Assembly: GCF_010131535.1 (NCBI RefSeq)
Contig: NZ_WUBS01000001.1
Location: forward strand, 124,001-188,000
Reading direction: 5' to 3'
Source: Acerihabitans arboris
GTDB lineage: Bacteria; Pseudomonadota; Gammaproteobacteria; Enterobacterales; Enterobacteriaceae
DNA length: 64,000 nt
Of this stretch, positions 6,102 through 61,512 are shown one piece after another; position 1 is the stretch's first letter; each line of letters starts with the position of its first letter. Under the pieces are notes generated by a model. The model ran no database searches, had not been told where the DNA came from, and saw only the letters and a program-made list of their open reading frames with translations. Both the position numbers and the translations under genes were made by a program.

Positions 6102-6142
6102 GGTGGTGTTCCTTATCTATCGCTATTAAATTGGTTTAGTTG

Positions 6143-6200
6143 GAGCCTGTCTTCCTGCGCTCGTTATCGCTTACGCTTAAGAACACACGAAGACAGGCTC
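6143..6200 (-). repeat. Long imperfect-loop hairpin between pdhR and aceE
   Basis: A perfect 12-base inverted repeat (GAGCCTGTCTTC at 6143-6154 and its complement at 6189-6200) encloses a 34-base loop that itself holds a weaker inverted repeat (GCG...CGC). There is no T-run on either side, so it is more likely an RNA-processing or stability element, or an intergenic palindromic repeat, than a terminator. No second copy was noticed in this window. Confidence 0.55.
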
Positions 6201-6240
6201 ATTATTACGTTGCCGTTTTTCAGCTCCCGTTGCCGGAGGC

Positions 6241-47074: not shown

Positions 47075-47116
47075 TAAATACAATTACTCATTCATGAACT
47101 GGGACGCAGATCTATA

Positions 47117-47200
47117 ATGTTCACTTCTTTCCGTCTACTAGGCCTACTACTACTCGCACTGTCGATGCGCGGTACGCTGGTACACGGAGTTCAGAACTGA
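47117..47200 (+). CDS. leuL: leu operon leader peptide
   Basis: 27-codon leader with a run of leucine codons at positions 7, 8, 10, 11, 12, 13 and 15; five of them are the rare codon CTA ([16 protein letters not shown]). Ribosome stalling at these codons when charged tRNA-Leu is short prevents the terminator that follows. It is one residue shorter than E. coli LeuL and only weakly similar beyond the leucine run. Too short for most gene finders. Confidence 0.9.
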
Positions 47201-47220
47201 CTCATACGTCCCAGATATAA

Positions 47221-47248
47221 AACCCGCGCACTGCGCGGGTTTTTTTTT
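47221..47248 (+). terminator. leu attenuator terminator
   Basis: Stem CCCGCGC / GCGCGGG with a 3-base loop, followed by nine T residues, 20 bases after the leuL stop and 40 bases before leuA. Classic intrinsic terminator in the position of an amino acid attenuator. Confidence 0.93.
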
Positions 47249-52128: not shown

Positions 52129-52234
52129 CACTCCCATGCCCCACAGCCGGCCAACAAAACCGCCAGCACTCCCATGCCCCACAGCCGGCAAACGCAACCG
52201 CCACAAAACGTCCCCATTCCCATGCCTACGGCAA
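52129..52234. repeat. Tandem direct repeat next to the sgrS 3' end
   Basis: The block CACTCCCATGCCCCACAGCC plus GGC occurs at 52129 and again at 52167 (period 38) and in a decayed form at about 52215 (CATTCCCATGCCTACGGC). The last unit runs into the T-run of the sgrS terminator on the other strand. Confidence 0.6.
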
Positions 52235-54298: not shown

Positions 54299-54342
54299 GC
54301 GGCGCTGTTAAGCCGATGATAAAACCTTTACACTTAAACCTG

Positions 54343-54446
54343 TTCTCAACGGGGTGCGAACCTCCGGCATGGCTTTAGCCGGGGCGCGAGCTGAGAGTAT
54401 ACCCGTCGAACCTGATCCGGCTAATACCGGCGAAGGGATTTGAGAG
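54343..54446 (+). promoter_or_regulatory. TPP (THI-box) riboswitch
   Basis: All core TPP aptamer parts are present in order: closing stem TCTCAA (54344-54349) / TTGAGA (54440-54445), GGGGTGC, GCTGAGAG (54399 on), ACCC, GAACCTGATC and TAATACCGGCGAAGGGA. It lies 53 bases before thiB, as in E. coli thiBPQ, and should shut down expression when thiamine pyrophosphate is high, probably at translation since no T-run follows. Confidence 0.96.
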
Positions 54447-54498
54447 TGCGCCGCGCTGCCTCAAACGCCTTTGCCGCCTTTTTTTCCAGGAGCGCAAA

Positions 54499-55479: not shown

Positions 55480-57065
55480 TACCCCGCTGGTTATGGCCGG
55501 GGCTGCTGGCCGCGCTGATGCTGACGGCCATTGCCATCGTGGCCGTCGGCGCCCTGTGGGCCAGCGCGCCGGCGCCCCACTGGCGCGTCTTGCTGTCGGA
55601 CAGCTATCTTTGGCATGTCCTGCGCTTCACCTTTTGGCAGGCGTTGCTGTCGTCCCTGCTGTCGGTGCTGCCCGCCATCCCCCTGGCGCGGGCGCTCCAC
55701 CGCCGCCGGTTCCCGGGGCGCCTGCTGCTGCTGCGTTTTTGCGCCATGACGCTGGTGCTGCCGGTGCTGGTCGCGGTCTTCGGCATCCTTAGCGTCTATG
55801 GCCGCCAGGGCTGGCTGGCGCAGTTATGCCTTTGGCTGCATATTCCCTACGGTTTTTCGCCCTATGGCCTGCCGGGGATCCTGCTGGCGCACGTTTTTTT
55901 CAACCTGCCGCTGGCCACCCGCCTGCTGTTGCAGGCATTGGACGGCATCCCGGTGGAGCAACGCCAATTGGCGGCGCAGTTGGGCATGACGGGCTGGAAT
56001 TTTTTTCGCATCCTTGAGTGGCCCTATTTACGCCGCCAGCTGCTGCCGGCGGCGGCCCTGATATTTATGTTGTGCTTCGCCAGTTTCGCCACCGTATTGT
56101 CCTTGGGCGGCGGACCGCGGGCGACCACGATTGAGCTGGCGATCTACCAGGCGTTAAGCTATGACTACGATCCCGCACGCGCCGCGATCCTGGCGTTGAT
56201 GCAAATGATCTGCTGCCTGGGGCTGGTGCTGTTCAGCCAGCGGCTGACGCGCGCTTTCCCGGTGGGGGCGACGCATTTCGCCCTGTGGCGCAATCCGGGT
56301 GATAATCTGGCGCGCAAATTGACCGACGGCACGATCATCACCCTGGCGCTGGCGCTCCTGGCGCCGCCCCTGCTCGCTGTGGCGGCGGGCGGCATTAACC
56401 TGGGCATGTCACGGGTGCTGTCGCAGGAGGCGCTATGGTCGGCCCTGCTGACCTCGCTGCGTATTGCGTTCGGCGCGGGGCTGTTGTGCGTGGCGCTGAC
56501 CCTGATGCTGCTGTGGAGCAGTCGCGAGCTCAGGCTGCGGCAACGGCCCTGGGCGGCGCAGCTGCTCGACCTCAGCGGGATGCTGATCCTGGCGATGCCG
56601 GGCATCGTGCTGGCCACCGGCTTTTTCCTGATCGCCACCAATAGCCTGGGGTTGCCCCGTTCCCCTTATGGGTTGGTCATACTGACCAACGCGCTGATGG
56701 CCATCCCCTATGCCTTGAAAATCCTTGAAACGCCAATGCTGGACCTGGCGGAAAGGTACAATCGCTTATGCTTATCCCTGGATATGGGCGGGCTGTCGCG
56801 TTTGCGCTGGGTGGAATGGCGGGCGCTGCGCCAGCCGATTGGCCGCGCCATGGCTTTCGCCTCAATTCTGTCGCTGGGAGATTTTGGCGTGGTGGCCCTG
56901 TTCGGCAATGAGCATTTCCGTACGTTGCCGCTATATCTTTACCAGCAAATCGGCGCTTATCGCAGCCAGGACGGCGCCGTCACCGCGCTTTTCCTGCTGG
57001 CGCTGTGTTTTTTATTGTTTACACTAATAGAAAAACTCTCGGGGCCATATGATAAAACTGGATAA
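55455..57065 (+). CDS. thiP: Thiamine ABC transporter permease
   Basis: Fused two-domain permease, 536 residues, about 12 membrane segments, with two EAA loops ([20 protein letters not shown] and [17 protein letters not shown]). Start assigned to TTG at 55455, giving [16 protein letters not shown], which aligns with the E. coli N-terminus MATRRQPLIPGWLIPG and overlaps thiB by 25 bases. An ATG at 55476 overlapping the thiB stop (ATGA) is the alternative and may be the real start. Confidence 0.94.
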
Positions 57066-57759
57066 GGCCACCTACCTCTACCAGCACCTGCCGATGCGTT
57101 TTGACCTGCGGCTGGCGGCGGGCGAAAAGGTTGCCGTCCTCGGTCCCAGCGGCGCGGGCAAAAGCACCCTGCTCAACCTGATTGCCGGTTTTTTACCCCT
57201 GCACAGCGGCGGCCTATGGTTAAACGGCCAGGATCACAGTGCTACGCCGCCCGCCCTGCGCCCGGTATCCATGCTTTTCCAGGAAAATAACCTGTTCGCC
57301 CACCTGACGGTGGCGGAAAATATCGGCCTGGGGCTGCATCCAGGATTAAAATTAACCACGGCGCAGCGGGACGCCCTAAGCGAGGTGGCGCGGCAGGTGG
57401 GGCTGCAGGAACTGCTGAACCGGCTGCCGGGACAGCTGTCCGGCGGGCAGCGGCAACGGGCGGCTCTGGCGCGCTGCCTGGTGAGGGACCGCCCCATCCT
57501 GTTGCTGGATGAACCGTTTTCCGCGCTCGATCCCGCCCTGCGCAACGACATGCTGCAACGGGTAGAAGACGTGTGCAACCAACGCGGCCTGACCCTGCTG
57601 ATGGTGTCGCATAACCTGGATGATGCCTTGCGTATCGCGCCGCGCACACTGCTAATAGTCGATGGCCGAATATATTATGATGGACTGACCTCAATGCTGG
57701 CGACAGGTGACGCGCCGCAAGCCGCCATACTAGGTATTTCACCGCGCCCAGGCGGTTAG
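57049..57759 (+). CDS. thiQ: Thiamine ABC transporter ATPase
   Basis: ABC ATPase, 236 residues. Walker A GPSGAGKS (about 33-40), Q-loop [12 protein letters not shown], signature [13 protein letters not shown], Walker [13 protein letters not shown] and H-loop MVSHN. Overlaps thiP by 17 bases. Last gene of the thiBPQ unit. Confidence 0.97.
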
Positions 57760-59114
57760 CGCCATGAATTAGCGCACGCTCGAACGGCCTTATAATTTAG
57801 TTGATCCCCTTCCCACACCCTTTATTTATAGGGTTTTTATTAAGTTACAATAAAAATCAGGGCAAATAGCCAAAAATGGCATTGTTGATCCGCTTCACAC
57901 TCCGCTAATAAAAACCTTACTATATTAGATTAAGGCGCTTTTTCAGCAGAAATTTTATGGTGTCGATAATAAGACGCCCGGTTCGGCATGCACTGATTTT
58001 TTAAGCATACCTGGAAAGCAATGACGCATTTTAGGTAGTATAGATAAAAAAACTTAAAATGCCACATTTTCAACGCCGGGGATTGTTTGAACATAATCAA
58101 TTATTGCGATAACTAAATAATTTCACACGCCGCGCCGACATAAGTTATATCAATATTGCATGCTAAATATTAGAATACGAATATAGTTGATGCCATCCTA
58201 TATGTTAAAATCCATATCCCCGGCAACACGTTGATTACGTTATCAAGACCAGCCTACCCTGTATTACCGGGCGAAGAATAAAGCGCCCGCGCCAATGCCG
58301 TGGAAATATGCGCACTACCGGAATTTTCTTTAAAATTATAACGCGCCACGAATAGACATCCGGCCCGGTTTAGCTGCGGCGGAACAAAGCATTACCATCA
58401 TATGTCCGCCATGCCATCCGCCATTTCCCCCTCAGGCTGTACCATACTCCACCGGGCCGGCCTCGAATCCCCACGGCAGCCGGTTCGTGACTCATTATCC
58501 CGGCGACTGCAGGAAAATCAGGCAAATTCAGCACATCCGCCGCCTGGTCCCCCTGCAAAAATGTACCCCTGGCTTTATCAACCACGACATCATCGACCAG
58601 GCATTTATCGCTACATCTACAATATAAAAAGTCCGCTAACTGATTTTTTTGCTACTGATTCCTAATTTGCAAATAACATATAAGCATTGTTTTATTATTA
58701 TCTGCTTATTTTCCATTAATTTTAATAAAAAATTTGGATTTTATAGACAAATGCCGGATTAAGGTTAAGACATTTTGATATTAGGGAAAACATTGACTTG
58801 CCTCACACTATTGATAGCGAATACTCTTTGATTTCTTTCAATTAGCGTTTATATTGATTAAATATAACAATTTAATTACTTATTAAATATCATCTTCGCT
58901 TATTGTATATAACGTACAATCGGCACTAGCTCTTTAAACAGAGCCTTTCAATATCAACAGCATTAATCTTTATGCGGACCGATCAGCAAAACATCATCTG
59001 CTACAAGGGATAATATATAACAGTGTTTCTATTCATTTTTTTCTCATTAAAACTCATGCAACCCATTAATCAAAACAACAGGAGATACTGATTCACCGCA
59101 GAAGGAGCGCCTTT
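57760..59114. other. AT-rich intergenic island, no supported gene
   Basis: 1,355 bases between thiQ and the small ORF at 59115. Mostly AT-rich, unlike the rest of the window, except for a GC-richer block about 58250-58600. In that block both strands have open frames (plus 58402-58665; minus 58370-58585, with NLPDFPAVAGIMSHEPAAVGIRG), neither with a ribosome binding site or a family I recognise. It may be a gene remnant. In E. coli the araBAD-araC region is close to this place. The AT-rich part from 58780 is probably the promoter region of the downstream pair. Confidence 0.5.
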
Positions 59115-59210
59115 ATGCAAGTCTTAATCAACACCAGGTTCTACATCAGGAATGCCGGCATGCATTGCCGACTGTCAATGACATCTTATATTATTGAGGG
59201 TTATCTATAA
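59115..59210 (+). CDS. 31-residue small ORF coupled to the pseudo-subtilase
   Basis: GAAGGAG (59101-59107) is 7 bases before ATG, the strongest Shine-Dalgarno in this region. The ORF encodes 31 residues (starts MQVLINTRFYIR, contains one Cys at position 18, ends YIIEGYL) and its TAA stop overlaps the ATG of the next gene by one base (TAATG). This geometry implies that the ORF is translated and drives translation of the downstream gene. No family recognised. It may be a leader, a substrate or partner peptide of the downstream protein, or only a coupling device; function is unknown. Confidence 0.55.
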   Translation: MQVLINTRFYIRNAGMHCRLSMTSYIIEGYL

Positions 59211-60616
59211 TGAGTGAAAAATTTCATAAAAAAATCGACTTCTTTGCTCAGCAGGGTGTAAAATACACCAATATTGTTTTCCAACTAAAAAGAAACAATG
59301 TCGGTTCGTATTACTTTTCGGAGGCCCAGAAAATTGAGCATGAACTGAAATTTAACTTTGAAACCATGGGGATTAATCCCTTATTTGACGTATCCGGCAG
59401 CCCTCGTGATGACTCAACCAGGGAGATGAATAAAAGATTTGGTTTAGATCGGTATTTTAAAGTTAAATTTTTCAATGACAATGTCAACTCGGCTGATTAT
59501 ATCAATGGAATACTGCATGCAATTGCGTTATTCAGCTCTGTCGAAACGGTCTATCCCTCGTCGGAACCGATATCACTGCGCTCCGGGGACATCCAGGATT
59601 TGTCTCATGCCGCCAAGCCCATCATCTATAATGAGACAAAATCGTCTGTGGAATCAGATATTCCCAATTTTGTATCCTTGCAGTATTACCTATGGCCGGC
59701 CAGGCACTGTTTTAATGGTTTTAAACTCGGCGGCGTAGACGGCGCCGCGGGCTTAGCCTACGAGGGCGGCAGGGGCGAAAATGTTACCATCATTACCAAT
59801 GAGCCTGACGCCTGGTTTACCGGACATAAAAACCTACCGCAGGAACGCGCGATTGTCGAGGGCGCCGTCACGGTGGGCAACGACGACACGGCATCTGTAG
59901 GCGTGATGGCGGGCCTGGAATTGGGCTACGGCATTCTGGGCATTGCCAGCCGGGCAAAGGTAGGATATGCCGCCCGTGGCCTGCAATATCTCTATAACCT
60001 TTATCACCGCCTGAAGGCAGGCGACGTCATCCAGATAGGTATGCAGCACCAAGGAGGCTGTATGACTTATCATAACCAGGGATGTTATGTTCCTGTGGAG
60101 TTTGAACCCGCCTGGTTTGATATGATTTCCGCTTTAACCACCAAGGGAATCCATGTTATCCAGGCGGCAGGAAATGGGGCGGTGAATCTGGATCACCCGG
60201 CGTTTAACGGCAAGTTCAATCGCAACCTGCAGGACTCAGGGGCGATCATCGTCGGCGCGCTCGACCCCAGGACCGGCCTCAGGGCCGCCTACAGCAATTT
60301 TGGTTCGCGTCTGGACAGCGCCAGCTGGGGCGATTATGTGGTGACGACGGCCTATGGGTATGCCACCCTGCTCAATCAAACCAACGCTTGGTATATTAAT
60401 AATTACTCCGGCAATTCCCCAGCCAATCCCATCGTGGCAGGGGTGGTCGCATGTCTGTCAAGCATCGCAATCGCCAATAAAAAAAGCGTCTCACCTATCC
60501 AATTCAGGGAGTTATTAACCAATACGGGAACCGTGTTGGAGGAAAATCTTTCCTCGATTATCGGCACCCAGCCAGACCTGGGTAAGGCGATCTACGCGTT
60601 ATTTTCCGATTACTGA
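59210..60616 (+). CDS. Subtilisin-like (S8) protein, predicted catalytically inactive
   Basis: 468 residues, no signal peptide. Residues 1-150 form an N-terminal domain I do not recognise. From about 175 it follows the S8 fold: GRGENVTIITNEPDAW (187-202), VEGAVTVGNDDTASVGVMAG (216-235), QAAGNGAVNLDHP (318-330), GAIIVGALDP, and YSGNSPANPIVAG (399-411). Against active relatives of this branch the catalytic Asp position is N197 (or T196), the His of the usual DHGT is aspartate (D225-D226, T227; no His there), while the oxyanion Asn (N322) and the Ser (S403 in GNSPA) remain. So it looks like a pseudoprotease. It is translationally coupled to the 31-codon ORF, lies in AT-rich DNA, and is convergent with yabI 9 bases away. 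Likely acquired by transfer (inferred). Confidence 0.8.
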   Translation: MSEKFHKKIDFFAQQGVKYTNIVFQLKRNNVGSYYFSEAQKIEHELKFNFETMGINPLFDVSGSPRDDSTREMNKRFGLDRYFKVKFFNDNVNSADYINGILHAIALFSSVETVYPSSEPISLRSGDIQDLSHAAKPIIYNETKSSVESDIPNFVSLQYYLWPARHCFNGFKLGGVDGAAGLAYEGGRGENVTIITNEPDAWFTGHKNLPQERAIVEGAVTVGNDDTASVGVMAGLELGYGILGIASRAKVGYAARGLQYLYNLYHRLKAGDVIQIGMQHQGGCMTYHNQGCYVPVEFEPAWFDMISALTTKGIHVIQAAGNGAVNLDHPAFNGKFNRNLQDSGAIIVGALDPRTGLRAAYSNFGSRLDSASWGDYVVTTAYGYATLLNQTNAWYINNYSGNSPANPIVAGVVACLSSIAIANKKSVSPIQFRELLTNTGTVLEENLSSIIGTQPDLGKAIYALFSDY

Positions 60617-60625
60617 ATCATCTCG

Positions 60626-61393
60626 TCAAAATTTTAATACTTTCCATAATTGAGCGGCGTAAATAGGCATCAGCGGATGCTGGATTAGCGCGATAAGTGC
60701 CGCAACAGCAGCCATCAGGCATAACGGCGCCAGCCAGCGCAACCGCGATAACGGCAGCCACCCGGCAAGCCTGCCCGTAGTGCGTTTGCCACTGCGAAAC
60801 CAACGCCACACCAGCCAGCCGGCCAGCCATACCAGCAGGGCAACACCCAACAGCAAGCCACGGAATTGCCCGGTATGCTGGCCGGCTGGAATATTAATTG
60901 CCACCCCGGCCAGGATGCCGGGCATAAAATAAGCCGGAGGCCAGCTCAGGCAACCAATAATATTAGGCAGCGCGAATTTAAGGGGCGGCAAATCCAGCAT
61001 GCCCGCCACCAACGGTATCAGCGGACGAGTCGGGCCAATGAACCGGCCGGCCAATATGGTCAGGTTGCTGTGCCGGTGCAAGGCGTGTTCGGTTTTATGG
61101 AGCATGGCGCGGTGCTTTTTCAGGAACGACCATTTCTTCAACGACTTTTTACAACCGTGACCGATAAAATAGGAAATCCAATCGCCAAGGAAACATCCAA
61201 CGATGCCGGCGGCCCAGGCGGGGTAAAACCCCAGGGTACCGCTGCCGATAAACGCGCCCAGCGTCGCCATCATCAACGTACCCGGCAACAGCAGTCCGAC
61301 AAAAGCCAGGGATTCAAGGAATGCCACCAACGCTACGGCAGTAAGCGAGAAAGCCAATGATTGTGTTACCCAATGCGCTAAAAAATCTTGCAT
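60626..61393 (-). CDS. yabI: DedA-family membrane protein YabI
   Basis: 255 residues, several membrane segments. DedA/VTT-domain protein; the family is implicated in undecaprenyl phosphate or phospholipid flipping and membrane homeostasis. Conserved ESLAFVGLLLPGTLMMATLGAFIGSG with the family Glu, GDWISYFIG, and the GRFIGPTRPLIPLVAGM motif with functionally important arginines. Divergent from polB. In E. coli araC-araBAD separates these genes; here they are adjacent. Confidence 0.94.
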   Translation of the reverse strand: MQDFLAHWVTQSLAFSLTAVALVAFLESLAFVGLLLPGTLMMATLGAFIGSGTLGFYPAWAAGIVGCFLGDWISYFIGHGCKKSLKKWSFLKKHRAMLHKTEHALHRHSNLTILAGRFIGPTRPLIPLVAGMLDLPPLKFALPNIIGCLSWPPAYFMPGILAGVAINIPAGQHTGQFRGLLLGVALLVWLAGWLVWRWFRSGKRTTGRLAGWLPLSRLRWLAPLCLMAAVAALIALIQHPLMPIYAAQLWKVLKF

Positions 61394-61512
61394 AACCCTC
61401 TCTTGTTTATTTAAGCCGACGGATTGTCAGGGCTGGATGGCGCCGGCGTCAATGTAACAATTGTATATAGATTTGGCGGGGATTGACGTTCGGCGGCGCA
61501 ACTGGACAAACA

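Follow-up and report, generated by a model that had tools for sequence, protein, structure and literature searches.

A probable pseudoprotease of a new subtilase lineage in Acerihabitans arboris, from a family with a probable glutamate triad acid

What becomes of a protease when its catalytic centre is dismantled and its fold is left standing? The question is raised by a gene downstream of thiQ in Acerihabitans arboris, on a stretch of 64,000 nucleotides (contig NZ_WUBS01000001.1 of assembly GCF_010131535.1, positions 124,001 to 188,000) that we call the window; its product is referred to as the window protein. A preliminary description had read it as a subtilisin-fold pseudoprotease which had lost two of three triad residues and lay in a foreign-looking island. 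We regard it as a pseudoprotease from a new subtilase lineage, in a family with a probable Glu triad acid, and are inclined to see in it a subtilase-derived protein without signal peptide and with a putative binding role.

The window protein belongs to the S8 family by descent, in sequence as in fold: Peptidase_S8 (PF00082) matches residues 305-443, scoring 37.9 bits where the cut-off is 21.8, and the subtilisin fold extends over residues 154-466, in agreement with the fold first proposed. The two structure models are of middling confidence (predicted local distance difference test, pLDDT, 62 and 61), with residues 222-228 of the window protein below 50. The first 150 residues had been called unassigned, which still describes the N-terminal domain as regards Pfam (no match) and PDB sequences (its profile reached E 0.29 at best, the level of chance), but no longer residues ~17-118, which align with counterparts in the intact relatives and are modelled as strand-helix-strand-helix-strand. 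This is the order of a subtilase prodomain, and by its predicted topology the segment would fit one of the I9 type.

The catalytic centre was examined in an alignment of 33 family proteins, 30 of which possess His, Asn and Ser and are termed intact here. Active S8 peptidases require Ser and the oxyanion Asn, and the window protein has both, S403 and N322 being aligned with the corresponding residues of its relatives just as had been stated. They also require the catalytic His, which the window protein lacks: N224-D225-D226-T227 occupies the position of xHGT or xH[DN]T in the relatives and D225 stands in the His column; the earlier reading of the DHGT motif as NDDT thus proved correct. We judge that catalysis is very probably gone. 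Two nearby residues were considered for the triad and set aside: D200 is not conserved among intact clade members, and H206, invariant family-wide, is part of another motif (HxxL) which we take to be that of subtilisin His39 and not of the catalytic His.

The position of the triad acid required more deliberation, the loss having been placed at N197 or T196. Among the intact proteins, the T196 column holds D in 15, S in 8, H in 5, and I and L in one each, and the E198 column holds E in 23, D in 6 and Q in 1, so that E198 is the only column acidic in nearly all of them (29/30). From this column to the conserved His of the next motif the distance is seven residues in 21 of the 30 and eight in the other nine; in subtilisin, the spacing from Asp32 to His39 is seven. 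A profile of 17 family proteins put E198 on the catalytic Asp, ungapped, in all five alignments listed (four of them to StmPr1), and when profiles were compared with those of seven canonical subtilases, this placement came out again for the DxE and HxD groups and for the full set of 33 proteins. Pointing the other way, profiles of the SxE clade alone, described below, set E198 one residue off the catalytic Asp (three of five profiles match overall), and a profile of six DxE proteins laid their own Asp, in the T196 column, on the catalytic Asp of the PDB sequences at the cost of a gap of two residues; this was so in all four alignments listed, once more to StmPr1. On balance, the evidence makes E198 the likely triad-acid position, with a sizeable margin for error. 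Taking it so, the window protein has Glu for the acid, Asp in place of the His, and Asn and Ser as oxyanion residue and nucleophile, and one triad residue has been lost, not two, the supposedly altered Asp column being Ser or Thr in all 11 SxE members, eight of them intact. By the same evidence there is probably a group of subtilases that use Glu as triad acid; a literature search for such enzymes, covering result listings and passages of PMC5371821, found none. Separately, we recorded a Paenibacillus larvae phage relative, located near amidase genes, whose acid column is Gln and which has an Asp two positions earlier, and an intact relative on an IMG/VR contig (L057 496-2058) that combines His in the T196 column with Glu as the acid.

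How far have the orthologs travelled the same path? A tree in which the catalytic columns were masked makes the window protein (G000) sister to G001A and G004 (trio 100/100, pair 100/99), the latter two from the metagenome-assembled contigs JAATFX010000009.1 and JAATGH010000211.1; G005 and the second copy G001B join this trio in a genus clade (99/97), and the five genus proteins together with G406, G169, G707, G238 (two copies) and G466 form the 11-member SxE clade (100/99), in which eight members are intact. Within the trio, two proteins have Asp in place of His (the window protein and G004), two have His in place of Asn, two are without the Ser and one is without the Glu; G004 has lost Ser, Asn and Glu alike. 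Conservation of the substitutions, which had been suggested as a check, was not observed: they are not fixed across the three orthologs, and the common feature is an incomplete catalytic set only.

The changes are concentrated at the active site. Across 69 columns invariant in the eight intact SxE members, the window protein is changed in 8, G001A in 9 and G004 in 18, and 49 of the 69 remain fixed across the trio. At the 13 of these invariant columns that we assigned to the active site, a choice made after the alignment had been inspected, 4 are changed in the window protein (P 0.036), 4 in G001A (P 0.057), 8 in G004 (P 0.003) and 9 in the trio jointly (P 0.001). When each of the eight intact members was instead compared with the other seven, none of the 13 was changed, and this includes G466, which yet differed in 19 of 88 columns elsewhere. 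At the four catalytic columns alone the result is borderline for G001A (2/4, P 0.080) and clear for G004 (4/4, P 0.0035).

The scaffold meanwhile appears to have been guarded. Stop codons in sister strains had been named as what would speak for random decay, and neither stops nor frameshifts occur in the open reading frames of the three orthologs; an apparent stop in G001B turned out to be its natural C-terminal end. Codon positions in the trio differ by 0.26-0.30 (first), 0.17-0.22 (second) and 0.55-0.58 (third), and the Nei-Gojobori (NG86) estimates are dN 0.24-0.31 and dS 2.2-4.1, the latter saturated, so no dN/dS ratio is claimed. Neutral simulation of the window gene to a third-position difference of 0.55 left 17% amino acid identity and a mean of 19.6 stops, with no stop-free run in 1000, whereas the trio retains 60-65% identity and zero stops.

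Could the gene nevertheless be decaying, its leader lost, the protease useless, constraint relaxed at the active site first with the rest following, and no function left now? That the orthologs lost different catalytic residues with no single fixed set, that two of the six genus genomes lack the gene, and that its evolution outpaces that of the genes around it (the trio is 60-65% identical, whereas thiQ, dedA, thiB and polB are 78-89% identical between G000 and G001) all fit such a course. Against it stand the unbroken frames, an identity of 61% where neutral drift over the same third-codon difference leaves about 17%, and scaffold columns that hold (49/69) while active-site columns change (9/13); we consider it unlikely. 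The proposal of a retained non-proteolytic role in place of random decay accordingly survives in its appeal to an intact scaffold, joined by the unbroken frames and the active-site focus of the changes, and loses its argument from two missing triad residues, one being lost. Several observations nonetheless weigh against a retained binding role. The enrichment is weak for the window protein alone (4/13, P 0.036; catalytic columns 1/4, P 0.40) and the columns were picked with hindsight; two changes common to orthologs demand parallel change or reversal, His to Asp in the window protein and G004 requiring either two parallel changes or one followed by reversal in G001A; and the purifying selection may in large part be older than the catalytic loss. 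Moreover, the gene is missing from G002 and G003, where nothing of the kind separates thiQ from dedA, so the genus can do without it, and the window genome holds one PF00082 match only, that is, no active partner subtilase.

This last point speaks against the idea that the protein regulates an active subtilase as an inhibitory decoy or as a propeptide chaperone in trans. The adjacent copy B in G001, with His, Asn, Ser and Glu intact, and the retention of the prodomain-like part would suit it; as the window protein is the single family member in its genome, we regard it as very unlikely. We give the least credence to a rebuilt hydrolase in which S403, N322 and E198 remain and D225 substitutes for His, a carboxylate-only site after the manner of the sedolisin Ser-Glu-Asp. 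The Ser, oxyanion Asn and Glu retained in the window protein, and the fact that two of the three orthologs have exchanged His for Asp, could be so understood, but the other Asp-bearing ortholog, G004, has neither Ser, Asn nor Glu, the turn at the nucleophile is altered through the changes T402N and S404P, and Pfam matches S8 only. In sedolisins (family S53), furthermore, it is Glu and not Asp that sits in place of His, and the oxyanion position is Asp; the window protein has Asn there. The immunity role that had been mentioned found no support, and a defence protein was rejected: the window protein has no PADLOC match, and the genes around it are thiBPQ and those of a membrane protein of VTT/DedA type and of DNA polymerase II; its relatives weakly match one PADLOC subtilase model (E 4e-6 to 4e-4).

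Returning to the pseudoprotease with a putative binding role, its history may be pictured as follows. The likely ancestor would be a secreted S8 peptidase with a prodomain and a Glu-His-Ser triad, accompanied in some relatives by PKD and chitin-binding domains. Within the genus, signal peptide and any C-terminal domains would have been lost from the gene between thiQ and dedA, and on the branch leading to the trio (the window genome with its two nearest sisters) catalytic residues would then have disappeared, even as purifying selection maintained the S8 scaffold. Once His was lost, self-removal of the prodomain would be impossible and the prodomain would stay over the old active-site cleft, leaving a probably cytosolic protein that might bind peptide or protein by cleft or surface. 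A broader view, which we put forward only tentatively, is that of a widespread subtilase group with Glu at the usual triad-Asp position (DxE, SxE, HxE), one branch of which has become leaderless binding proteins permanently retaining the prodomain. A single locus in a single genus would then display a natural series that starts with an active Glu-type enzyme and ends with a pseudoenzyme. The wider family could also serve to test whether Glu can stand in for Asp in a subtilase triad.

Judged by hydropathy only, G406, G169, G707 and both G238 copies begin with a Met-initiated hydrophobic leader-like stretch (top 12-residue hydropathy 1.8-2.7), the five genus proteins have none (0.2-1.4) and carry a Met near where the leaders would end, and G466 has such a stretch without a Met start in the frame as read. 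PKD and CBM_5_12 exceed the Pfam cut-off in G466; G406, G169 and G707 show weak PKD below it. By tblastn, relatives occur in 16 of 72,556 plasmid records and 4 of 50,697 phage records (three of Sodalis phage phiSG1, one of a Paenibacillus larvae phage), and a viral scan with an intact-relative profile gave 2 loci. Of whole genomes of relatives, 12/99 match at E 1e-3, own genome included; the profile of the five genus proteins matches 22/392 family genomes at E 1e-15 and, at E 1e-30, 8/394 order and 3/398 phylum genomes, these sets overlapping. A relative on a Serratia fonticola plasmid (L020 4479-7343; His, Asn and Ser intact) is followed, after ~500 bases, by a gene whose annotation is cytolethal distending toxin subunit B family.

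At the locus itself, thiQ is present in all six genus genomes and the gene in four (G000, G001 with two copies, G004, G005), following thiQ in every carrier and preceding dedA in three; copy B of G001 lies between dedA and polB. In the thiQ tree G000, G001 and G004 branch as in the masked gene tree (96/95, 99/96), a 381-base polB piece groups the three (97/96) leaving the order among them unresolved, and the agreement of masked gene tree and thiQ tree indicates vertical inheritance within the genus. A recent island is thereby rejected: what looked foreign is indeed AT-rich (GC 39.8% in the first 450 bp of the gene, 54.1% in the rest, mostly 55-64% in neighbours), but old and at a locus common to the genus carriers. 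Its reported absence from E. coli agrees with blastn across 5,426 E. coli genomes, which returned no match. Rfam had no match over 57000-61500, and promoter-like sites (15 against 7.8 expected by shuffling) are taken as an effect of AT-richness. Between gene and polB in G004, dedA is represented by no more than a weak match of 30 residues (L056 3023-3112), as might be left by a mostly lost dedA or by misassembly. Elsewhere in the window are a TPP riboswitch (54340-54456) ahead of thiBPQ, a Leu_leader (47110-47246), a tp2 sRNA match (6105-6229) and two repeats of a 38-base unit (91% match, 52129-52203) in the gap before sgrR. Coordinates of the gene and its parts are collected in Table 1.

Table 1. 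Features of the pseudoprotease gene and the gap preceding it (window positions).
Feature	Position	Strand	Basis or remark
S8-fold pseudoprotease gene	59210..60616	+	ATG start, 468 aa; open reading frame list, Pfam PF00082, fold comparison
Prodomain-like N-terminal domain, residues 17-118	59258..59563	+	Alignment and model; name inferred
Subtilisin-fold domain, residues 154-466	59669..60607	+	Fold comparison
T196	59795..59797	+	Column Asp in 15/30 intact relatives, Ser in 8 intact SxE members
E198, most likely triad-acid position	59801..59803	+	Acidic in 29/30 intact relatives; profile alignments
D225, catalytic His position, lost	59882..59884	+	Alignments
N322, oxyanion-hole Asn, kept	60173..60175	+	Alignments
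S403, catalytic Ser position, kept	60416..60418	+	Neighbours T402N, S404P altered relative to clade
AT-rich stretch, thiQ-to-gene gap	57760..59209	.	Without recognisable gene or Rfam family

Among known systems, subtilisin (PDB 1scj, 1s01) has fold, Ser and oxyanion Asn in common with the window protein and differs in its Asp-His-Ser triad, at 23-24% identity. The SxE clade comes closer, with the same domain, Ser or Thr in the T196 column, a one-residue insertion after E198 and a prodomain-like N-terminus, although its members outside the genus keep His, Asn and Ser. Gp48 of phiSG1, which carries CBM_5_12, and the S8 protein of Sodalis praecaptivus pHS1 belong to the same wider family and, like the window protein, have no leader-like N-terminus; they are 28-30% identical to it and have His, Asn and Ser intact and Asp in the acid column. 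A functional precedent is provided by CspC and CspA of Clostridioides difficile, for which PMC6636752 describes a subtilisin fold, a degenerate triad, an unprocessed prodomain and a demonstrated role without catalysis; CspC has degenerate G485 and T170, keeps D105 and bears a jelly-roll insert of ~130 residues in its subtilase domain. The likeness lies in the subtilisin fold with a degenerate triad, in another lineage and setting; and the subtilase domain of the window protein, 313 residues aligned over 245 with the 275-residue subtilisin, leaves no room for an insert of the kind described there, so that this Csp-family feature is absent. Few bacterial pseudoproteases have a known role; our literature search found CspC and CspA, and the presence of intact, partly and fully degenerate orthologs within a single genus makes the step from enzyme to binding protein testable.
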